Under the pieces are notes generated by a model. That model did no database searches, was not told the DNA's origin, and saw only the letters and a program-made list of their open reading frames with translations. From Lachnospiraceae bacterium (GTDB lineage Bacteria; Bacillota; Clostridia; Lachnospirales; Lachnospiraceae): 32,335 nucleotides of DNA. The stretch covers positions 15,097 through 47,431 of the forward strand of contig JAAVAA010000040.1 of assembly GCA_014804285.1 (NCBI GenBank). The letters are read 5' to 3'. The translations under genes were made by a program, and so were the position numbers. Within the stretch, counting starts at the first letter, position 1; each line of letters begins with the position of its first letter. Below, piece after piece: positions 3,712 through 32,252 of the stretch.

Positions 3712-5385
3712 GTGAGTGATATTTTCAATAATGAATTATTTGAAGCGTTTGCGTCGGCATCTGATAATGTATACATCTATGTATGCGATATGAAGACGGA
3801 TATTTCGCGCTGGTCCAGGGCTGCCGTGGATTATTTCGGGCTGGAAGGGGAGTATCTGGAAAACGCGGGGGATGTTTGGGGACAACATATACATCCGGAT
3901 GACTTGAAGGTTTATATGGAGGATATCACAGGTGTATTTTCCGGCAAAAAGAAATATCATGACTGTCAATACAGGGCGCGGAATGCATTGGGCGCATATG
4001 TGTGGGTGGAATGTAAAGGCAGTGTGATCAAGGATGCGGAAGGAAATCCAATTATTTTTGCGGGACTTATGACAAGAATAGATGGGCAGAGCAAATACGA
4101 TTCTTTGACCGGACTTTTGACAACGCATGCGACGCACTATTTTGACTTTGCTTCACAGACCGGAATCGCTCTGCTGATCGGTATAGATGGGTTTCGAAAA
4201 ATTATAAGCAACTACGGATATAACATTGGGGATGAAATTTTAGTAAAATTTTCTAGGGAGATAAACGGTTTATGTAAATCCGGATGGAAAGTGCTTCGAT
4301 TCAGCGGAGATGAATTCCTTGTAATTGCTTTTGAATCTGATCTGCAGGAAGTGATGGATTTTTATGAGAGAATATGCCGGGAAACGGATATTGTGAAACT
4401 GGAAGACGGGCGGAAAGTAGGAATTTCTGTATCGGCTGGCGGAGTTTTCTTTCCCCAGGATGCGGATAACAGGGAAGTTCTAATTAATAAACTGGAGCAC
4501 TCGCTGGAGTATGCCAAGAATAACCAGAGAGGCAGCATGGTATTTTTTTCGGACGAGATTGCCGGAAAACATGAGAGAGGACTGGTTCTGCGGGAGGATT
4601 TAAAGCAGTGCATCAAAAATGATTTTAAAGGGTTTGAATTGTTCTTTCAGCCGTTTATCAATCCGGATACCGGAACGATTGCGGGCTGTGAATGTCTTCT
4701 GCGCTGGAAGGGAGAAAGAATTAAAGATTCTTATCCCATGGAGTTTATTAAGGTTTTAGAGGATTACGGTGATATTAATGAAGTAGGTTCCTGGGTTATG
4801 GAACAGGCAATCAGTCAGCAGGCTGCATGGCGTGATAGATACGGAGAGCTGCAGGTAAGCTTTAATGTATCTTATCAGCAGTTTATAGACGATGCCTTTG
4901 AGGAAAGAGCGATTTCCTGTGTGGAAAAGTACGGGGTAAATCCGAAATATATCATTATAGAGCTTACGGAAAGCTGCCATGTAGAAGCCCCCAAAGAGCT
5001 TGCGGCCGTGTTTGGCAGGCTGCGTGAACAGGGCTTTAAAATAGCGTTGGACGATTTTGGGACGGCGTATGCTTCTATGGAGATGTTAAAATGGCTGCCT
5101 GTGGACTATATTAAAGTGGAGCATTCCTTTATCAGGGAGCTTGCGCAGCCGGGGCACGACATGGATTATGTGATTGTTGACAGTCTGTTGGAAATGTGCA
5201 GGCGCTTAGGATATCATTCTATTATAGAAGGTGTGGAGAACAGTAAAGTAGCGGATATCGTGGGAGGACTGAATGCTACGCTGCTGCAGGGATACCATTA
5301 TTCACGTCCTGTCTGTCGGGAAGAATTTGAAAAGCTGCTGGAGGAGGATAGAAAGAAGGGTGTGCGCATCAAAGCAGTTCCTTAG
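3712..5385 (+). CDS. PAS-GGDEF-EAL domain protein (putative c-di-GMP phosphodiesterase, degenerate GGDEF)
   Basis: 557 aa. PAS-like N-terminus ('VWVECKGSVIKDAEGNPIIFAGLMTRID'), 'LRFSGDEFLV' in place of GGDEF, EAL domain with ECLLRW, NVS, IIELTES, DDFGTAYAS, IKVEHSFI and IIEGVE. Confidence 0.9.
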   Translation: MSDIFNNELFEAFASASDNVYIYVCDMKTDISRWSRAAVDYFGLEGEYLENAGDVWGQHIHPDDLKVYMEDITGVFSGKKKYHDCQYRARNALGAYVWVECKGSVIKDAEGNPIIFAGLMTRIDGQSKYDSLTGLLTTHATHYFDFASQTGIALLIGIDGFRKIISNYGYNIGDEILVKFSREINGLCKSGWKVLRFSGDEFLVIAFESDLQEVMDFYERICRETDIVKLEDGRKVGISVSAGGVFFPQDADNREVLINKLEHSLEYAKNNQRGSMVFFSDEIAGKHERGLVLREDLKQCIKNDFKGFELFFQPFINPDTGTIAGCECLLRWKGERIKDSYPMEFIKVLEDYGDINEVGSWVMEQAISQQAAWRDRYGELQVSFNVSYQQFIDDAFEERAISCVEKYGVNPKYIIIELTESCHVEAPKELAAVFGRLREQGFKIALDDFGTAYASMEMLKWLPVDYIKVEHSFIRELAQPGHDMDYVIVDSLLEMCRRLGYHSIIEGVENSKVADIVGGLNATLLQGYHYSRPVCREEFEKLLEEDRKKGVRIKAVP

Positions 5386-6661
5386 TTCTCCGGACAAGGT
5401 ACAAAGGAAGATTTGTAATATCCCCATCCTTTCGATAACCGCGTTTTGAGAAACGCAGCGCGTGTTCGGGATGGTGGTCGGCAATATATTTTTTGAAGGA
5501 CGGGGCGGATTTGTCTTCCCCGCCCTTTACTTCAATTGGGATAATCTCAGATCCATATTGCAGGACGAAATCTATTTCATGATTCTTATCAGAGAAATAG
5601 CGGGGGGCAATTTCGAACTGCCCTCGAAGCTGCTGCAGACAATAATTTTCAGTCAGAGACCCTTTGAATTGGTAGTCAGATTTCAAAAGGATAGCGCTGT
5701 TGTCAATACCGGCCATGTGCTTGAGGAGTCCGGTATCAAATACAAAAAGTTTAAACTGATCTAATTTGTCAAAGGCTGAAAGGGGATGTTCCATTTTGGA
5801 GACATTGTAAACACGGTTAAGCATACCGGCTGAGACAAGCCATTCAATAGCTTCTTCAAAATCACGTGCCCTGCCGCCTTCGCGGACAGCACCGTACATG
5901 AACTTCTCGTTGGGTTTGGCGAGCTGCGTGACAATACTGCGGAAGACCATGAGAATACGTCCGCTGTTTACTTTACCGTTGTGTTTTGAAAAGTCATTTT
6001 CATAGACTTCAATAAGCTCATGCTGTATTTGGGATATTTTCGCCGGATCTTTGTACTCAACCCATGAAGCAACACATTCCGGCATACCACCGATGATAAG
6101 ATAGTAGTTGTATGCTTCAAGAAGGCGATTGTGAAAAATATCTTCAATCAGCTGCTCTTTCTGTATATTTGAATAGTAGTCATAAAGGGGCGGATCAACC
6201 GCAGCTAGAAACTCATCAAAGGTCAGTGGAAAGATGTCGAGCAGATTTACCATGCCAACCGGATAAGATTTCGGCTTTGCAAGGAGTGTTCCAAGCAGGC
6301 TGCCTGCTGCAATGACGTGGTAGTCATTGGCTTTCTCCTTGAAATATTTAAGCGTATTCAGTGCCTCTGGGCATTCTTGAATTTCATCAAAAATAATAAG
6401 TGTTTCGCCTGGAAGGATTTTAACTCCGGCAATCATAGAAAGAAGATCGATAATCCGGTGAGGATTTTTGTTTGTCTCAAAGATGGATTTCAATTCATCC
6501 TCTTCGTCAAAGTTGAAGTAGACAAAGCTGTCATAGCAGTTCTGGCCAAATTCTTTCATAAGCCATGTTTTGCCGACCTGACGCGCGCCTTTTAACACCA
6601 TAGGCTTTCTTTCTTTGCTGGATTTCCAATTAATCAAGTCTTGAATAGCATTGCGGTTCAA
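5369..6661 (-). CDS. AAA ATPase with C-terminal DUF4143 domain
   Basis: 430 aa. 'RKPMVLKGARQVGKTWLMKEFG', 'LIIFDEIQECPEALNTLKYF', 'RYFSDKNHEIDFVLQYGSEIIPIEVKGGED' C-terminal nuclease-like motif. Likely TTG start after GGGAGGGG. Confidence 0.92.
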   Translation of the reverse strand: MNRNAIQDLINWKSSKERKPMVLKGARQVGKTWLMKEFGQNCYDSFVYFNFDEEDELKSIFETNKNPHRIIDLLSMIAGVKILPGETLIIFDEIQECPEALNTLKYFKEKANDYHVIAAGSLLGTLLAKPKSYPVGMVNLLDIFPLTFDEFLAAVDPPLYDYYSNIQKEQLIEDIFHNRLLEAYNYYLIIGGMPECVASWVEYKDPAKISQIQHELIEVYENDFSKHNGKVNSGRILMVFRSIVTQLAKPNEKFMYGAVREGGRARDFEEAIEWLVSAGMLNRVYNVSKMEHPLSAFDKLDQFKLFVFDTGLLKHMAGIDNSAILLKSDYQFKGSLTENYCLQQLRGQFEIAPRYFSDKNHEIDFVLQYGSEIIPIEVKGGEDKSAPSFKKYIADHHPEHALRFSKRGYRKDGDITNLPLYLVRRTKELL

Positions 6662-6881: not shown

Positions 6882-7013
6882 TTGAAAGATTATATCGAGG
6901 AGCGAGCAATCGATATTGCTAATTATATTATTGAAAATAACGCAACAGTAAGACAGAGCGCAAAGCAGTTTGGAATCAGTAAGAGTACGGTACATATGGT
7001 AGTAACAAAATAG
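6882..7013 (+). pseudogene. spoIIID: Truncated SpoIIID-like sporulation regulator remnant
   Basis: TTG-initiated frame LKDYIEERAIDIANYIIENNATVRQSAKQFGISKSTVHMVVTK* matches the N-terminal HTH region of SpoIIID as I remember it, then hits TAG at 43 aa. Below the ORF-track cutoff. Confidence 0.7.
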
Positions 7014-7109: not shown

Positions 7110-8171
7110 TTATTTTAATAAAGTATATTTAAGCATTTGAAATGCAGCCTGTTTCTTGGCATATTTCTTAGAAGATGATTTTGCACAAAAGCATGTTGTG
7201 ATATCTATTATGCGACAAGTGCATTTCCAGATAGGGTTTCCATTGGTATCATATTCTTGTTCAAATTCATAAAAGGGGATTGAAAAATATCCTCTTCTTG
7301 CTAGTGTTTCCAGTTGACCGATGGCATCGTTTATATTTGGATTTGGAATTTCATCACGAATAGATAATAGCATGTTGTTTCGTTCTAATTCTTTATAAGC
7401 CAATGCGCATACTGCTTTTCGGGCTTCATTTTTTGAGGTGCCAAAACTTCTGAAAATTGTGTTTAGCTCGCCTAGTTTTAACAGGCATGTATGTTTTGAT
7501 TCGGGATTGCCATCGTAAGAGGACGAAATGCCGTCAAAAGGGACATACCATACTGCTTGTGAAGCCTTTTCAAAATGATACCATGGAACTATTCCATACT
7601 TTTTTAAGGCCCACTCCTGTATAAACTCAACATAATTGTTATCCATATCTTCTTCAAAATAACTGTCGGGATCAAGCATTATTTGAACAACATCCTGAAG
7701 AATTTCCATGTCCCAATTAGAATCCAATGCCACTGCACCGATAATTGCCTCAAACAGATCTTCTTTAACAGAAAGTGAGTTATTTACATTGCTTTGGATG
7801 TCACCGTTTCCCATAATGAGATAGTCGGCAAGATCCAAGACATTGATTCTGTCTGCAAGTGTTTTCTTTTGAACTAATTTTTTCTTGAGTTCTGTTAATT
7901 CAGCTTCATTTTTACTACATACAAACTCATCAAATTCTTCATTCGGATTAAAGTCCTCGTAATCACTGATAAAATAACCATGTTTTTCTGTCAGTAGTTT
8001 TACCACGATAAGATCCAGCACCTTGTCACCAATAAACTCTAATATCTCGTTGTTCTCTCCGCCGTTTTCTTTTGAATAAGAGCGTCTAATGAATGCTTGT
8101 TGTAACAAATCAGTATTTTGAAAATTGTAGCCGATTTGATCTTGGATAAATGTTAAATCCTTTTTGTCCAT
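7110..8171 (-). CDS. Accessory ribonuclease III family protein with two putative tandem dsRNA-binding domains
   Basis: 353 aa from ATG at 8171 (RBS AGGAGGT). RNase III signature 'ENNEILEFIGDKVLDLIVV'; second acidic motif 'EDLFEAIIGAVALDSN'; dsRBD-like 'SFGTSKNEARKAVCALAYKEL' and 'SSSKKYAKKQAAFQMLKYTLL'. Confidence 0.85.
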   Translation of the reverse strand: MDKKDLTFIQDQIGYNFQNTDLLQQAFIRRSYSKENGGENNEILEFIGDKVLDLIVVKLLTEKHGYFISDYEDFNPNEEFDEFVCSKNEAELTELKKKLVQKKTLADRINVLDLADYLIMGNGDIQSNVNNSLSVKEDLFEAIIGAVALDSNWDMEILQDVVQIMLDPDSYFEEDMDNNYVEFIQEWALKKYGIVPWYHFEKASQAVWYVPFDGISSSYDGNPESKHTCLLKLGELNTIFRSFGTSKNEARKAVCALAYKELERNNMLLSIRDEIPNPNINDAIGQLETLARRGYFSIPFYEFEQEYDTNGNPIWKCTCRIIDITTCFCAKSSSKKYAKKQAAFQMLKYTLLK

Positions 8172-8217
8172 AAAAATACCTCCTAGTATTTGTTTTGTAC
8201 TAAAAGGCATAATAATA

Positions 8218-8261
8218 GCCTGACAAAAATACTTCTGCGTGGCAGAGTAATATTGTCAGGC
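8218..8261. promoter_or_regulatory. Long hairpin upstream of the RNase III gene (candidate 5'-UTR processing element)
   Basis: GCCTGACAAAAATACTTCTGC-gtg-GCAGAGTAATATTGTCAGGC: about 18 pairs, two A.A mismatches, one bulge, no U-tract. Ends 46 nt upstream of the start codon at 8171. Confidence 0.6.
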
Positions 8262-8485
8262 ATGATAGATTAAATTAGATTCTTTGTTTTCGGGTGTTTA
8301 CTGATATTCACTTACATAAATAGGAATAAACACATATAAACAATGTTTCGAATTTAAAATATTATGCCATGCAATTAACATATCAGAATATAAGTATTTA
8401 GTCAATGACCTTTTACTATACTGTTTCTGTTGTAATTAAAGACTGAATAGGATAAAATGAGAAAAAGCGAAAGGATATTTGGAAT

Positions 8486-8788
8486 ATGTCGGATACTGTG
8501 TATACTATTAGCCAGCTTAAAGAAAGGCTGATACCAATTTTTATAAATAATAGCATAAGGAGAGCGGTTCTCTTTGGTTCTTATGGAAAAGGCTTGGCAA
8601 CAAAAGAAAGTGATATTGATTTGCTGGTAGACAGTGGTCTTAAAGGGCTTGGTTTTGTTGGACTGATAGAAGATATTCGAGCAGCCGTAGATAAAGATGT
8701 GGATATTTTCGACATTACTCATGTAGAAAAAGGATCTAAAATTGATTTGGAAATTCAAAGAACGGGAGTATTAATGTATGAAAAATGA
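8486..8788 (+). CDS. MNT-type minimal nucleotidyltransferase (MntA-like antitoxin)
   Basis: 100 aa. 'RAVLFGSYGKGLATKESDIDLLVD' = GSx10DxD nucleotidyltransferase motif. Overlaps the next gene. Confidence 0.9.
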   Translation: MSDTVYTISQLKERLIPIFINNSIRRAVLFGSYGKGLATKESDIDLLVDSGLKGLGFVGLIEDIRAAVDKDVDIFDITHVEKGSKIDLEIQRTGVLMYEK

Positions 8789-9101
8789 TGTGATTATCGG
8801 AAAAATGCTGGGATATATTGAAAAAGTATTAAAATATACGAAGGGTATGGAATACGATACTTTTATAAAGCAGGAAGTAATAATGGAAGCCTGTATATTC
8901 AATTTGAGCCAATTAGGTGAATTGGCTGGTAAGGTTGACAATGAATATCGGGTGATTCACAAAGAAATTCCATGGAGTCAGATATATGGTTTGAGAAATC
9001 GAATTGTACATGATTATGAAGGTGTAAATTTTATGCTTGTATGGGAAATTATTTACAATGATTTACAAGAACTTAGAGAAATGTTAATAAGCATAAAATA
9101 A
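8778..9101 (+). CDS. HEPN-domain protein (HepT/DUF86-like toxin)
   Basis: 107 aa. 'IYGLRNRIVHDYEGVN' contains the RX4H HEPN motif. Overlaps the MNT gene by 11 bp. Confidence 0.9.
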   Translation: MKNDVIIGKMLGYIEKVLKYTKGMEYDTFIKQEVIMEACIFNLSQLGELAGKVDNEYRVIHKEIPWSQIYGLRNRIVHDYEGVNFMLVWEIIYNDLQELREMLISIK

Positions 9102-9379: not shown

Positions 9380-10234
9380 TCAATTAGTAAATACATCCAG
9401 AATTGCTTTTTTTGAGAATGGATGCAGTGTGTCGTCAGATTTTTCAGTATTTTTTTTGAGTAATTTTTTTAACTTGTCCAGATTGAGTTTCTTATTTGTA
9501 TGATTATTTATTCCTCCAATTAGAATTTTTATTTCTGCATTTCTCATGCCGGAAATGACATATGCCGCTTCAAAAGTTATTCTTTTTTCATCAAGTAGGT
9601 TTGCAATAGATTGAAGAAGATTATCAGGGAGTTTTATGATACGTATGTACTTACTCAGGGTAGATGTAGAAATACCAAGACTGTGGGCTGCTTCATCTCT
9701 GTTAGTGGGGCGTCTGGAACTTCTGGTAAAATTAGACACAAGTTGGGCGCAAGTATCTTCCTTAACTTCTGAATTGGACACAGGTTGGACACAAGTTTTT
9801 TCGCTTTTCGCAGCGGCTTTCTCCTCTAGATCCGTACGTTTCCCTTGGCGGGAGTTCATTTCCATTATTTTTTTATAGTATTTTACGGTCTCAAACCTTT
9901 GCGCATAGCTACACGCTGAAAAAGGCTGTTGCCTAAGGTTACTGTTAGAATATATTTTTGTTGCATCTTCATCAGACAACCCATTTCTTATGTCTGCATG
10001 AATGACCGTACATCCTAACATTTCTAGTGCTTTAATGCGGTTATGACCACAAAGGACTTCATATTTTCCATTATCTACAGGGCGAACAATAACTGAATCC
10101 ATCAGACCGGCTCTTTTGATACAGTCTGCCAACTGCTGCATCCAATCCTCTTCATGCATATATTTCTGGTCACCTTTAAAAGGAATCAATTTCTCAAACT
10201 CAATATCTTTGGATTCTCTGCACATATCCATTTC
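9380..10234 (-). CDS. ParB/Spo0J-like partition protein
   Basis: ParB N-terminal features 'LIPFKGDQKYM', 'VIVRPVDNGKYEVLCGHNRIKALEMLG', 'YSNSNLRQQPFSACSYAQRF'; HTH 'TNRDEAAHSLGISTSTLSKYIRIIKL'. ORF track begins with GTG at 10273; the ATGGATATG after AAAGGGGGAA is the more likely start. Confidence 0.9.
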   Translation of the reverse strand, partial: EMDMCRESKDIEFEKLIPFKGDQKYMHEEDWMQQLADCIKRAGLMDSVIVRPVDNGKYEVLCGHNRIKALEMLGCTVIHADIRNGLSDEDATKIYSNSNLRQQPFSACSYAQRFETVKYYKKIMEMNSRQGKRTDLEEKAAAKSEKTCVQPVSNSEVKEDTCAQLVSNFTRSSRRPTNRDEAAHSLGISTSTLSKYIRIIKLPDNLLQSIANLLDEKRITFEAAYVISGMRNAEIKILIGGINNHTNKKLNLDKLKKLLKKNTEKSDDTLHPFSKKAILDVFTN

Positions 10235-10263
10235 CCCCTTTTTATGGTTATATATTATCAACC

Positions 10264-10280
10264 TTTTGGACACAAGTCAA
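10264..10280 (-). promoter_or_regulatory. Promoter of the parB-like gene overlapping an ACTTGTGTCCAA motif
   Basis: Minus strand TTGACT-(17)-TAATAT. The motif ACTTGTGTCCAA (10266-10277) overlaps the -35 and spacer and recurs inside the gene. Confidence 0.5.
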
Positions 10281-10362
10281 AACAATGTACAGAACTCCGA
10301 TTATCTTATTGGATAAGGAAAGTATGTAAATATATATTCTTACCATGATACTATAAATAGGT

Positions 10363-10384
10363 CCTGTGCCAGCAATGGCATGGG
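10363..10384 (+). promoter_or_regulatory. 5' leader hairpin with GCAA tetraloop upstream of the DUF6809-parMR operon
   Basis: CCTGTGCCA-GCAA-TGGCATGGG, 9-bp stem including two G.U pairs, downstream of a TATAAT-like region and upstream of AGGAGG. Confidence 0.5.
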
Positions 10385-10417
10385 GATTTATTTCTTTTAA
10401 CAGGAGGTTTTAAAAAG

Positions 10418-10912
10418 ATGGGAATAAGTATGATTGAAAAAATCTACAACAGTTTGATGGATGATGAGGCGTATGGTGATCTGCCGGAGACAGAAGAAGC
10501 AAGAAAGAAATTAAAAACATATGTCATGAACAACCTTCTCAGTTCCGATGATGAAGAATCATACAGGCAGTGGATGGAATTAGAGAGAACCGTTTCAGAG
10601 TTTGGTATAGTGAACGAACAGCAGGGATTTATCTTTGGATTCAATTATGCAGTGGAATTACTCACAAAAGGAAGGAAACAATGTATTAGCGGAAAACTGG
10701 ATGAGAACATCAAAAGTGAATATTCTACATTAGCAGTAGGGAAGATCAATAAGATGGACAAGGTGGAAGATATCCTCAAAGAGTATGTTCCAGAAGGGAA
10801 ATTGAGTAATGCAATAGATACCTTTTGTTCGTGTCTGGATGAGACAAAATATGCAGTATTTGAGCAGGGGTTTCTTCGGGGAATTGCAGCAATGAAAGGT
10901 GGTAATATATGA
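10418..10912 (+). CDS. DUF6809-like protein
   Basis: 164 aa. 'MIEKIYNSLMDDEAYGDLPETEEARK...EQQGFIFGFNYAVELL' and 'AVFEQGFLRGIAAMKG' follow the pattern remembered for DUF6809. RBS AGGAGG. Confidence 0.65.
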   Translation: MGISMIEKIYNSLMDDEAYGDLPETEEARKKLKTYVMNNLLSSDDEESYRQWMELERTVSEFGIVNEQQGFIFGFNYAVELLTKGRKQCISGKLDENIKSEYSTLAVGKINKMDKVEDILKEYVPEGKLSNAIDTFCSCLDETKYAVFEQGFLRGIAAMKGGNI

Positions 10913-10951
10913 TAAATGGAATTATAAGTACGGGGAAGGAGAGGATTGGTA

Positions 10952-11878
10952 ATGGTCAGGTTAAGTAATGGAACTTGTGTGGTCGGGTTTGATGATGGAT
11001 ACCAGCTTGGAAAAACAGCAAATTTCATATTTGATAATGGCGTACATATGCTCGGAAGTGTAGAACCAACGCTGAAAGAAAATTCCCTGTTTTACGATGG
11101 GGAATTTTTTAAAGTAGGTGAGGGAAGGTCTGCTATTACAGATGACAAACTCTCGGATGATGCTGCAAGGCTTCGGACGATGGCGGGTATTGCAATGGAA
11201 TTAAGGAAAGAAGGAATCCGAAATGCGGATGTGGTGCTTGCAGTAGGATTACCTTTTTCAAATTATGGAAGGGATAAGCTTAAGCTGATAGATTATTACA
11301 GCCAGCATAAGGTGCAGGACTTTTCATATGAGGGTGAGGAGTATTCTGTCAATATAGTGAAAGTGATTGTATGTCCACAATGTTATTCGGCTATTGCATC
11401 AAGGCTTGGCAACATGAAGGGAGATTACCTGATCGTAGATATTGGCAGTAAGACCACGGATGTTGTGTATGTGCAGGATGGGCTTCCAGTAGAGAGTAGA
11501 TCTATCACAATTGAAAAAGCTATGGTGAAATGGATGAAAGAGATCCAGCATGAAATGAAAGTCCAGACAGGGAAAGAGATACCAGAACATGAAGTCATGA
11601 AGGTTGCCCTGAAAGAGGACAGTAACCTTCCAGCGGCATATGCGGAACTGATCAGGGGTATGCTGCGAGAAAAAATCCATTCCCTCGAATTGGAACTTGC
11701 AGAGCGTAGTTACGACCTTGATTATATCAACATCATCTATGTTGGCGGTGGTGCGCGGATAGCAAAGGATTATGCAGGGAAATACCGTGGGCATACAGCT
11801 TACGACTGTGATTTATGTGCCAATGCAAAGGGATATGAATTTCTTGCCAGGCAGATAGAAGGGAAGCAGGTGGGGTAA
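10952..11878 (+). CDS. parM: ParM/StbA-like actin-type plasmid segregation ATPase
   Basis: 'CVVGFDDGYQLGKTANF' phosphate-1-like, 'DYLIVDIGSKTTDVVYV' phosphate-2-like, 'IIYVGGGARIAKDY' adenosine motif. Directly followed by a ParR-like ORF. Confidence 0.88.
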   Translation: MVRLSNGTCVVGFDDGYQLGKTANFIFDNGVHMLGSVEPTLKENSLFYDGEFFKVGEGRSAITDDKLSDDAARLRTMAGIAMELRKEGIRNADVVLAVGLPFSNYGRDKLKLIDYYSQHKVQDFSYEGEEYSVNIVKVIVCPQCYSAIASRLGNMKGDYLIVDIGSKTTDVVYVQDGLPVESRSITIEKAMVKWMKEIQHEMKVQTGKEIPEHEVMKVALKEDSNLPAAYAELIRGMLREKIHSLELELAERSYDLDYINIIYVGGGARIAKDYAGKYRGHTAYDCDLCANAKGYEFLARQIEGKQVG

Positions 11879-12264
11879 TGGATGGAAAACAGAAATCTAT
11901 ATTTATCCGGTTCAATATGGATAATAGGGCGGATAAGGAATTATATTTAAAGCTGTCGGAGGGAGCAGATGATTCAGCTTCCTTGACTGCTTATGTGAAG
12001 AAAGTCCTTGAAGAATACTTCAGCCTAAACATTAAGATAGCAGACAGGCAGGAGTTCCATAACCAGATGCTTGTGGCAGTCCGGGAAGAAGTTCAAGTGC
12101 AGGGGATGAAGCTGGTTGGTGCATTACTTGCAGGAATTGGCTCTGGTAATATCCCAGTACAGCAGTTGAGTACTGTGCAGAATGAACAAAGGGAAACAAT
12201 ATTACCAGAGGCTTGTGAAGAATTACCAGATGGGCTTAGCGGTGTTCTTGACTTGATCAGTTAG
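11878..12264 (+). CDS. parR: ParR-like centromere-binding protein
   Basis: 128 aa. Overlaps the parM stop; N-terminal 'KSIFIRFNMDNRADKELYLKLSEGADDSASLTAYVKKVLEEYF' ribbon-helix-helix-like; position typical of parMR. Confidence 0.7.
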   Translation: MDGKQKSIFIRFNMDNRADKELYLKLSEGADDSASLTAYVKKVLEEYFSLNIKIADRQEFHNQMLVAVREEVQVQGMKLVGALLAGIGSGNIPVQQLSTVQNEQRETILPEACEELPDGLSGVLDLIS

Positions 12265-29367: not shown

Positions 29368-30150
29368 TTATCTGGATAACTCCATTTCCCGATTAGGGCT
29401 TTGCACTAATTGCTTTTGGCGGATACGGTCTTCATTACGTGACTTAATTAATCGCTTTTTATTGCCAGCAGCTGTCTTTTCTCCCCGTTGTTCCTTTTGA
29501 TAATCAATTCGACTCAGATGAATGGTAGGTTCTCGGTTGTATATACCTTGTATTTCAAGACTTTCGTGGCTCACGTGTATATCTAATCCATTTCGTTCAT
29601 ATGCCCGGTTCTGTACATTCGCCCATTCAGCGCGCCAAATATCAAGGTACTCCTTTTTGTCCCATTTTCTATCCTTTTTTTTACTAAAACCATTTTGATC
29701 AATAGTTCTGGTTGGCACAATGATGTGGACATGTGGATTGTTCCGCTTGGGATCAATTTCGTTTCTACCTTCATGAATGGCTGTGATCGCACATAAACCT
29801 TGCGAAATGAAATTACTTTGCACATATTCACTGACTATTCGCTTTTGTTCATGAAGTGATAATTCATTTGGTAGTGATCCCTTAAATTCACGTGCAGTGC
29901 GAGCATCATATCGAGACTCCGCTTTATCAATTTCGTCACAAAGGAATTGTAAATCATAAAATTTAAGAGGGGCTTTATCTGGAAGAAAAATTTCAAATAG
30001 TAAGAGATCTTTTCTTCTGTTATAATAAGTTTTGTTATTGTACCCATCATGTAGTTTCCTTCCGCTGATATAGTTGACAGATTTTACTACCGAACGGTTT
30101 TTCCTACGACTGATAATACCAACTTCTAGATGGTAATTTGCCATATTCAA
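29368..30150 (-). CDS. MobA/MobL-type relaxase (MOBQ-like)
   Basis: 'ANYHLEVGIISRRKNRSVVKSVNYISGRKL', 'NNPHVHIIVPTRTIDQNGFSKKKDRKWDKKEYLDIWRAEWANVQNRAYERNG' = MobA/MobL HxH motif region. Confidence 0.9.
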   Translation of the reverse strand: MNMANYHLEVGIISRRKNRSVVKSVNYISGRKLHDGYNNKTYYNRRKDLLLFEIFLPDKAPLKFYDLQFLCDEIDKAESRYDARTAREFKGSLPNELSLHEQKRIVSEYVQSNFISQGLCAITAIHEGRNEIDPKRNNPHVHIIVPTRTIDQNGFSKKKDRKWDKKEYLDIWRAEWANVQNRAYERNGLDIHVSHESLEIQGIYNREPTIHLSRIDYQKEQRGEKTAAGNKKRLIKSRNEDRIRQKQLVQSPNREMELSR

Positions 30151-30179
30151 ATTCCACTCCTTTCAATGCTCTTGTAATA

Positions 30180-32096
30180 TCATTTGGTTGTCTTTTCTTC
30201 CTGTCCACTTACACATGTCTCATTAGATTGTGCTCTATTTTTAGCTTTTTGATTTAATTGTTCCATCAATTCTTTATCTTCTGATAGAACTAATAAAAAC
30301 GATTCAAGGAAATTAAGTGAAATGGTAGTTTCATCTGTTCCATCTGATTCCAAACATAAAATTTCTGGGAAATAGTTACTGACAAGATTACCGATAAGGT
30401 AACATTGTCGCTTTCTTTTTTTCTCTTGAGCTTCTCGATTATTTCTATCTGTTATCCGTTTCTGTCGTTCAAGCGTTTCAATTAGGTCTTTCACTGCTCT
30501 TATCCTTTCTTCAATAGTTGGTAATTCTTTAATTTCTTTTGGCATTATTTCTGGTGTCTTTTGAACAATGCATGTGCAGACTGGTTCAACTGTATTCGCT
30601 ATCTGTAATCTATCCGGATGCTCCATTACGGTTGCATATATAATAGAAGAATTAGGTTTATATGGCTGATCAAATAGGTTGCAGCTTGCTTGGATTTTGT
30701 TAATGCGGCAAAATCCAAAGGGTGATAGTAACAAAACATCGTTCAAAGACGAAAACTCATGAGGAGGAATTCTATATTCCAGAGTTTCACTTATTTGCCG
30801 ATTATAACGTACGTCGTTCAATTCATCGTCCCAAGATTCACCAAAGCTTTCTTGTATACCCTTTTGAGTTCCAATCAGAGAACTAAAATATTGCTGAGTC
30901 TCAGCATCATTTGCGTGTAAAATAGCTTGGAATTGACAATTGTCTAGAATAATTCTTCTATCATTTTCGCCATAAATTTTGTCAAGTTGCGCGAGACTTT
31001 GAATAACAATGCAGATATTAACATTCCGGCTTCGCAGTGTAGATATTGCGTCTGTCATTAATGGGAGTTTACCGAATCTTGCAAATTCGTCCATCAGTAG
31101 CAATGTTGGTATATTATTTACGCCTTCAAAGCTGTATTTATCTGGACGACGTTCCAAATGCCGAATCAGTTGTGTGTACATTAAATTAATTGCACCGCTC
31201 CACTGTTCAATCTGTTCTTCTGGAATTTGTATAAAAATATTATATTTATCCAGATCTTGCCAAGTAAAATAGTCAGTCTCATTTTGAGTTACTCGAAATG
31301 CATTATTGATATATGGGTCGGCAGCGAATAGCATTAGCTTGTTACGTATGCCCCTGTCAAAATTTGCTAGTGTCTCAGATTTCATTTCCAACATTTCGCC
31401 AAGATACATTTTTGAGATATCTTCATTGTTTTGTTTAATTTTTTTTATCAAATCGGTTGTGCTTGTAGAAACAATGGCAATCAGCGTATCACTGAAATTC
31501 AAACCAAGTTTATAATAATAATGAATAGCTGCTGCTAATATTCCTTGCTCGCTTTCGGACCAAAAAGGCTGATTATCATTTGGAATGTCTGGTATATTTG
31601 CCCTAACAATCTCCCATATTCTGTTAGTTAAATTCCCATCTTCATCTTGGCGTAAACAATAAAATGGGTCATAAGAGGTGGAATATTTAAAAGGATTAAA
31701 AATTATATATGGGCGTTTAGCAATACCTCTAGCATATAATTTTGCATAATAATCACATAATTCGCCTTTGATATCGGTAGCGCAAATTGCACCAGACCAA
31801 GTAGCTAAGGTTGGCTTAATAATACCGGTACTTTTTCCGCTGCCATTGCCTCCGGCAATAAGAATATTTCCTTCTGTACCTTGTGAAAAGCCAACATATT
31901 GTGTTGGATCGCTATTGCTGTTGAGTCCGAAACAAAAACCACGGTCATGGCTTCTGCTAAGGGATAATGGGAGAGGGATACAATTATTATTTTGCGCAGC
32001 TTTTAATTCTTGCTTTGCAACTTGGTATTCAGAGTAATCATATTTGCCAGCTCGATATTTGCTATCACCAATCCAATAGTTATATTTCTTTTTCAT
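30180..32096 (-). CDS. VirD4/TraG-type conjugative coupling protein
   Basis: 'NILIAGGNGSGKSTGIIKPTL' Walker A, 'PTLLLMDEFARFGKLPLMTDAISTLRSRNVNICIVIQSLAQL'. ATG at 32096 preceded by AAAGGAGAG; track ORF extends to 32189. Confidence 0.93.
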   Translation of the reverse strand: MKKKYNYWIGDSKYRAGKYDYSEYQVAKQELKAAQNNNCIPLPLSLSRSHDRGFCFGLNSNSDPTQYVGFSQGTEGNILIAGGNGSGKSTGIIKPTLATWSGAICATDIKGELCDYYAKLYARGIAKRPYIIFNPFKYSTSYDPFYCLRQDEDGNLTNRIWEIVRANIPDIPNDNQPFWSESEQGILAAAIHYYYKLGLNFSDTLIAIVSTSTTDLIKKIKQNNEDISKMYLGEMLEMKSETLANFDRGIRNKLMLFAADPYINNAFRVTQNETDYFTWQDLDKYNIFIQIPEEQIEQWSGAINLMYTQLIRHLERRPDKYSFEGVNNIPTLLLMDEFARFGKLPLMTDAISTLRSRNVNICIVIQSLAQLDKIYGENDRRIILDNCQFQAILHANDAETQQYFSSLIGTQKGIQESFGESWDDELNDVRYNRQISETLEYRIPPHEFSSLNDVLLLSPFGFCRINKIQASCNLFDQPYKPNSSIIYATVMEHPDRLQIANTVEPVCTCIVQKTPEIMPKEIKELPTIEERIRAVKDLIETLERQKRITDRNNREAQEKKRKRQCYLIGNLVSNYFPEILCLESDGTDETTISLNFLESFLLVLSEDKELMEQLNQKAKNRAQSNETCVSGQEEKTTK

Positions 32097-32252
32097 GTCA
32101 GTTTGCTCTCCTTTCAATTTTTGAAAATATAATGTATTATAAGCGCAAACAGTTTTTTTAGCGATTGGGAAGAATTTACGATTTTGCATACTGTGAAAAA
32201 ATAGTTTGAAATAGAGCGGAAGTTTGACAGTTAAATAATATAAAAATACCCT

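Follow-up and report, generated by a model that had tools for sequence, protein, structure and literature searches.

An accessory RNase III of gut and rumen Clostridia with two dsRNA-binding domains and a conserved leader RNA that may control its synthesis

An RNase III gene with a structured leader

The window, by which we mean the whole 32,335-nucleotide stretch analysed here, comes from a Lachnospiraceae bacterium (GCA_014804285.1, contig JAAVAA010000040.1). We confirmed the coordinates of an RNase III open reading frame on its minus strand, with the ATG at 8171 and the stop codon ending at 7110; its Shine–Dalgarno (SD) sequence, AGGAGG, lies at 8184–8179. The protein consists of an RNase III catalytic domain (RIIID) followed by two dsRNA-binding domains (dsRBDs), and the gene is preceded by a conserved leader of about 200 nt (Table 1). 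An earlier note, made from the DNA sequence, had described the gene as an accessory RNase III with two apparent dsRBDs; the conserved leader, and a small acidic gene that follows many of its relatives, are features beyond that description.

Table 1 Features of the RNase III gene and its leader in the window
Feature	Position	Strand	Basis or remark
Accessory RNase III gene	7110..8171	−	353 aa; Pfam, AlphaFold model, 92-member family
RIIID, residues ~3–166	7674..8165	−	Pfam, conservation, PDB fold matches
dsRBD1, residues ~177–266	7374..7643	−	Divergent, weakened KKxAK motif (SKNEAR); model, PDB profile search, hhalign
dsRBD2, residues ~280–352	7116..7334	−	Canonical, SSSKKYAKKQAA motif; Pfam dsrm, model
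Conserved structured leader RNA (5′ UTR), P1 start to start codon, ~200 nt	8172..8368	−	Alignment, covariation, no Rfam match
P1 5′ arm GGCAUAAU	8361..8368	−	Pairs with 8206–8213; covariation
P1 3′ arm AUUAUGCC	8206..8213	−	Last two bases (8206–8207) are the first two of P7
Long hairpin rod P2–P5, GNRA tetraloop cap	8270..8357	−	
P6 hairpin GCCUGACAA...UUGUCAGGC, variable inner hairpin	8219..8261	−	Inner hairpin terminator-like in some members
P7, CCUUUUAGUA (8207–8198) with UACUAGGAGG (8188–8179)	8179..8207	−	Covers Shine–Dalgarno AGGAGG
Promoter-like TTGACT-N17-TATGTT, TG before −10	8377..8405	−	Consensus match only

Catalytic domain and two dsRBDs

The RIIID was matched by Pfam Ribonucleas_3_3 (E 8.1e-19, residues 20–151) and carries the two acidic motifs and the catalytic Glu/Asp set of the RNase III superfamily. 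All six catalytic residues (E42, E45, D49, E89, D138 and E141) are kept in essentially all 92 family sequences, bearing out the intact acidic motifs that had been noted. dsRBD2 was matched by Pfam dsrm (E 9.3e-11, residues 284–349) and has a full KKxAKK motif. The same Pfam scan of the 353-aa protein gave no match for dsRBD1, which has an enlarged β1–β2 loop and a weaker lysine patch than dsRBD2.

An AlphaFold model (60 family sequences; pLDDT 92.9, pTM 0.81) places after the RIIID two α-β-β-β-α folds, at residues 180–264 and 280–352, and therefore two dsRBDs. The best PDB matches of this model in Foldseek were RNase III and Dicer chains. Searched against the PDB, the dsRBD1 family profile found the dsRBDs of PKR (4.2e-8), TARBP2 (1.6e-7) and Loquacious, and hhalign matched it to dsRBD2 (E 4.2e-7). 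Comparison of dsRBD1 with the genome's own housekeeping rnc by BLASTP gave nothing useful, and its profile matched a housekeeping Rnc alignment weakly (probability 7.6). The profile search and the predicted structure together settle the identity of dsRBD1 at the level of sequence and model, and the proposal of tandem dsRBDs stands. Judged by its sequence, the protein is a catalytically competent two-dsRBD RNase III that is predicted to cut dsRNA.

Bacterial RNase III is a textbook housekeeping enzyme, and the assembly holds a canonical rnc on another contig (C67) in the order plsX–acpP–rnc. In an rnc search of the assembly that copy scored 162.8 bits against 70.5 for the window protein, which also fell below the cut-off of the housekeeping Rnc equivalog TIGR02191 (122.5 bits against 166.25). 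Given this separate plsX–acpP–rnc locus, the window gene is an accessory copy, as had been supposed, and is not the core or the only rnc of its genome.

The window protein shares with bacterial Rnc (class 1; TIGR02191) a RIIID with a complete set of acidic active-site residues and, behind it, a dsRBD, and it matches the fold of RNase III from Escherichia coli, Thermotoga maritima and Aquifex aeolicus. It differs from housekeeping Rnc in having two dsRBDs rather than a single C-terminal one, QAFxRRSY in place of the QALTHSSY motif, an insertion between the first catalytic motifs, and a conserved leader RNA on its gene. The RIIID also occurs with extra dsRBDs in plant RTL2 (RNASE THREE-LIKE). 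Pithovirus and iridovirus RNase III, which have a RIIID and extra dsRBDs as well, were fold matches at only ~15% identity; these plant and giant-virus proteins belong to eukaryotes or to viruses of eukaryotes, unlike the bacterial protein of the window. Cyanobacterial HEPN–RNase III–dsRBD fusions have been predicted to be accessory dsRNA-cutting RNase III proteins of conflict systems (PMC3710099); they have a fused HEPN domain and one dsRBD, whereas the window protein is not fused to HEPN, and the window's HepT/MNT pair is a separate, non-conserved neighbour.

A family in gut and rumen Clostridia

A genome collection and viral contigs were scanned with two short peptide patterns specific to the family. 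One scan of the genome collection found 152 relatives, 80 of which were retained for analysis (L034–L113), and seven loci were found in viral contigs. Hosts include Lachnospiraceae, Oscillospiraceae, Ruminococcus, Butyrivibrio, Pseudobutyrivibrio and other gut or rumen Clostridia, and some copies are in prophages. Nearly all intact members are 340–410 aa long with an unchanged architecture, the frame is open over nearly its full length in almost all loci, and all 60 members scanned matched both Pfam RIIID and dsrm. The literature and databases searched held no report of an accessory, mobile, two-dsRBD RNase III family with its own RNA switch, and this two-dsRBD accessory family of gut and rumen Clostridia is apparently undescribed.

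A divergent branch has an N-terminal extension and no leader, and includes a gene on the Ruminococcus albus plasmid pRUMAL01 (L033, 7569–9086). The plasmid-borne protein, which is 506 aa with a long extension, has its catalytic Asp49 replaced by Asn (GNAVLN). Another variant (L144, 1522–2592, minus strand) encodes an RNase III of ~290 aa with a RIIID and apparently dsRBD2 only; a marginal leader match (20.6 bits) precedes it and a type A-like acidic ORF, of the kind described below, follows. In L006 (G106:C33) a decayed RNase III copy of 68% identity is broken by stop codons, a recent loss. One genome carries paralogous leader and RNase III units ~14 kb apart (L146 and L147, G494:C20), with a type A acidic ORF only after the first.

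A conserved leader RNA with mutually exclusive helices

The first sign of the leader was ~200 nt of near-identical non-coding DNA 5′ of the ATG in relatives of 80–84%; the element was subsequently found in nearly all of the family. Aligning 66 leaders gave support for six helices, namely P1, which closes the element, the P2, P3, P4 and P5 helices of the rod, and P6. Over the 45 pairs of P1–P6, 92.5% of cells were paired, falling to about 43% when the alignment was slid. Both sides had changed at 27 pairs, giving 169 double-change cells against a shuffled mean of 44.7, and on none of the five measures did any of 500 shuffles reach the observed value; relatedness is ignored in the shuffle test but not in the sliding test. 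P7 was 88.9% paired, with 42 double-change cells against 17.2 in shuffles (0/500). P1 and P7 have two C residues in common, so the two helices are mutually exclusive.

Across relatives whose proteins share 35–45% identity and third codon positions 36%, the rod retains 67% identity; it includes a conserved internal loop and a UAUGNAAGUG loop region that hardly varies. Its tetraloop is GUAA in the window (8312–8315) and GCAA or GAAA in most relatives. The predicted fold of the window leader lies 6.6 sd below that of dinucleotide shuffles (z −6.6). No Rfam 15 family matched the leader at gathering score (best E in a permissive search, 0.37), and the leader would add an RNA family absent from that release. 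The promoter-like site is positioned for an RNA start at P1, and upstream of family leaders strong matches to the −35 and −10 elements occur more often than in shuffled sequence.

The leader is bound to one gene

A covariance model built from the leader (R1) was used in occurrence scans. In 1.2 Mb of flanking DNA, 78 of 83 loci gave a match, each time immediately 5′ of the RNase III gene, and there were no matches away from that gene; matches on the minus strand overlap the same element, owing to the near-palindromic rod. About 15 of the 78 matches were absent from the model's own alignment, and one of the five loci without a match starts at a contig edge. The window's own genome has the leader at one locus. 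Among 200 genomes of the same family, three have it together with an intact accessory RNase III gene and a fourth gave a weak 31-bit match; at class level it was found in 6 of 392 genomes, and in one of these it occurs twice, with a separate RNase III gene each time. That weak match aside, neither the own genome nor any of the family- and class-level genomes showed a leader without the gene, and BLAST searches of collections of plasmids and phages likewise found none. From this gene-bound occurrence, and from a promoter-like site that would start the RNA at P1, we conclude that the leader is a cis element of the accessory RNase III gene.

The strict one-to-one pairing of RNA and enzyme, and conservation that goes beyond base pairing, would also be expected if the leader or processed pieces of it were a trans-acting partner of the enzyme, such as a guide or decoy within a ribonucleoprotein. 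We consider this quite doubtful, as P7 takes in the SD at a fixed spacing from the start codon and covaries, which is a mark of cis control, and the RNA has no variable guide-like segment and no gene-free copies. It is more improbable still that the gene is a redundant second RNase III retained by chance with no special role: its patchy distribution, with the leader in so few class genomes, is what such a reading would predict, but the active site, both dsRBDs and the leader have been kept over deep divergence, in frames that are nearly full length almost everywhere.

A likely translation switch and probable feedback

When either P1 or P7 was forced, the predicted energies of the 66 leaders differed on average by 0.16 kcal/mol (sd 4.9), and the thermodynamic model favoured P1 in 22 of them. 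Mutual exclusion of the two helices at nearly equal predicted energy makes a translation switch likely, with the reservation that these energies are model values. With the 5′ part of the leader removed, which is what cutting of the rod would do should the fragments separate, the median predicted probability of P7 was 0.998, and the median predicted openness of the SD fell from 0.105 to 0.002.

The rod P2–P5 and the hairpin P6 are RNAs of a kind that an RNase III is able to bind or to cleave. While P1 is in place, the ribosome-binding site would be freer and the enzyme would be made; plentiful enzyme would bind or cut the leader, P1 would be lost, and P7 would close over the SD and stop synthesis. 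The predicted closing of the SD on removal of the 5′ part fits such negative feedback by cutting of the rod, and the gene is probably autoregulated through its leader. Autoregulation by cutting of the own mRNA is established for rnc of E. coli, where the gene product cuts a structured 5′ leader and expression is lowered (PMC3997798), and for rnc of Staphylococcus aureus (PMC3386247). The E. coli element, rncO, is like the window leader a structured RNA at the 5′ end of an RNase III mRNA (a comparison made from the description of rncO). The window leader differs in being larger, deeply conserved and equipped with mutually exclusive helices, one of them over the SD; its cutting by the enzyme is presumed.

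Several observations sit less easily with this feedback. The intact window leader already prefers P7 in the model (probability 0.91, against 0.13 for P1), and the P1 arms could remain paired after a cut in the rod. A terminator-like hairpin lies inside P6 in 24 of the 66 leaders, against 3.2 expected from shuffles; in this third or so of the leaders transcription attenuation is possible as well, and transcription may be the controlled step. The leader sequence is also conserved well past what a simple dsRNA substrate would need, and another ligand is possible. A riboswitch-like sensor of a metabolite, a host protein or translation status, gating RNase III without self-regulation, would account for the very high conservation of the rod, its near-invariant loop and internal loop, and the mutually exclusive helices above the SD. 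Most ligand riboswitches recur on several genes of one pathway, however, and this leader is confined to the RNase III gene and absent from others; self-control of RNase III through its own mRNA, moreover, has precedent. We regard a sensor of this kind as the less probable account, while giving it some weight.

A small acidic protein follows many family members

In 43 of 91 loci an ORF for an acidic protein of ~55 aa begins no more than about 20 nt from the stop codon of the RNase III gene. Two types, both strongly acidic, can be distinguished, type A in about 35 loci and type B in eight. Neither type had a Pfam match, and the structure had no PDB match; the protein would add a small-protein family absent from Pfam. 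In two cases (L037 and L073) a nearly identical relative carries the gene in a form truncated by a junction just inside it.

The position of this ORF, its two sequence types and its occurrence nowhere else in those 43 loci could suggest a toxin–antitoxin arrangement in which the acidic protein restrains RNase III as a nucleic-acid mimic. That arrangement seems to us a poor fit. The window has no small partner ORF after the RNase III gene, and so lacks the partner of a type II toxin–antitoxin system; the nearest relatives also lack the acidic ORF. Type A, type B and absence are interspersed over the tree, with at least 18 changes, and in phage contigs and other genomes comparable small proteins are encoded after genes unrelated to RNase III. 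With this mixed distribution and its occurrence after unrelated genes, the acidic protein is an associated component and not an obligatory one.

Type A-like proteins belong to a wider small-protein family. Three were seen after unrelated genes (L128 5098–5247, L129 5980–6135 and L145 1492–1779), two of them in phage contigs; the preceding genes encode, respectively, a 369-aa HTH-like protein, a 231-aa protein of unknown type and a 286-aa repeat protein.

Genomic setting and the question of defence

The nearest neighbours of the 80 loci are varied and include resolvases, integrases, restriction enzymes, Fic and Abi-type genes. At E 1e-10, 115 and 71 PADLOC families were matched by neighbours, against 7 in a single control set, which was drawn from 20 arbitrary loci of five same-family genomes and contained about as many proteins; such family counts are a rough measure, and the excess is large. 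The RNase III protein itself matched none of the families of PADLOC-DB 2.0. Stand-alone defence or conflict genes are usually found in such surroundings, and location alone is no proof of defence; a defence role of the accessory RNase III is plausible. The suggestion in the earlier note that the enzyme acts in defence beside the HEPN/MNT pair was not supported by the neighbourhood survey, in which an MNT-like gene was near only 3 of 91 loci, making HepT/MNT a chance neighbour and not a functional partner. Apart from the small acidic ORF, the flanks held no candidate for a universal protein partner.

That the gene is borne by mobile DNA holds for the family, with its prophage-like contigs, its member on pRUMAL01 and its recombinase, integrase, restriction and Abi neighbours; the window copy itself may lie within one conjugative element. 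Copies in viral contigs adjoin serine recombinases at the prophage end. These prophage copies and the divergent plasmid member would suit an enzyme that serves the mobile element rather than the host, in counter-defence or in element housekeeping such as maturation of the element's own transcripts or removal of antisense RNA, and RNase III is employed by animal and plant viruses to weaken host RNAi (PMC4352025). We think such service unlikely, since most of the copies found lie in chromosomal contigs amid varied defence genes and not in one type of element.

Our main reading is instead that of an accessory RNase III in mobile, defence-rich DNA whose synthesis is controlled by its own leader RNA, to which we give a probability of about 0.5. 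The gene-specific leader with its likely translation switch is a stronger finding than the idea of defence. If the two are joined, dsRNA of phage or rival-element origin would tie up the enzyme and lift the brake on its synthesis, so that more of the dsRNA-destroying enzyme would be made. The leader would then report free RNase III as part of a dsRNA-sensing immune homeostat, in which invader dsRNA titrates the enzyme off the leader, opens the SD and boosts the two-dsRBD nuclease, with optional tuning by the acidic small protein; we offer this fuller scheme as speculation that is improbable as a whole. Eukaryotes treat dsRNA as a signal of infection through Dicer and PKR, and the system described here would allow a direct test of such a role for dsRNA in bacteria.

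Within the window, the RNase III gene is flanked on one side by a DUF4143 AAA ATPase gene (5369–6661, minus strand; PADLOC candidate PDC-S01) and on the other by the HepT/MNT pair (8486–9101, plus strand). ParB-like and ParM-like genes lie in the middle of the window (9380–12264), and a MobA/MobL relaxase and a VirD4-like coupling protein are encoded at its right end (29368–32189, minus strand); these genes are those of a conjugative or plasmid-derived element. Just downstream of the RNase III gene is a truncated SpoIIID-like ORF (6882–7012, plus strand; 43 aa, MKDYIEERAIDIANYIIENNATVRQSAKQFGISKSTVHMVVTK), at which the GC content drops from ~0.44 to 0.35. It is the sole SpoIIID match in the 89%-complete genome and, as this only match is truncated, the island may have broken spoIIID.
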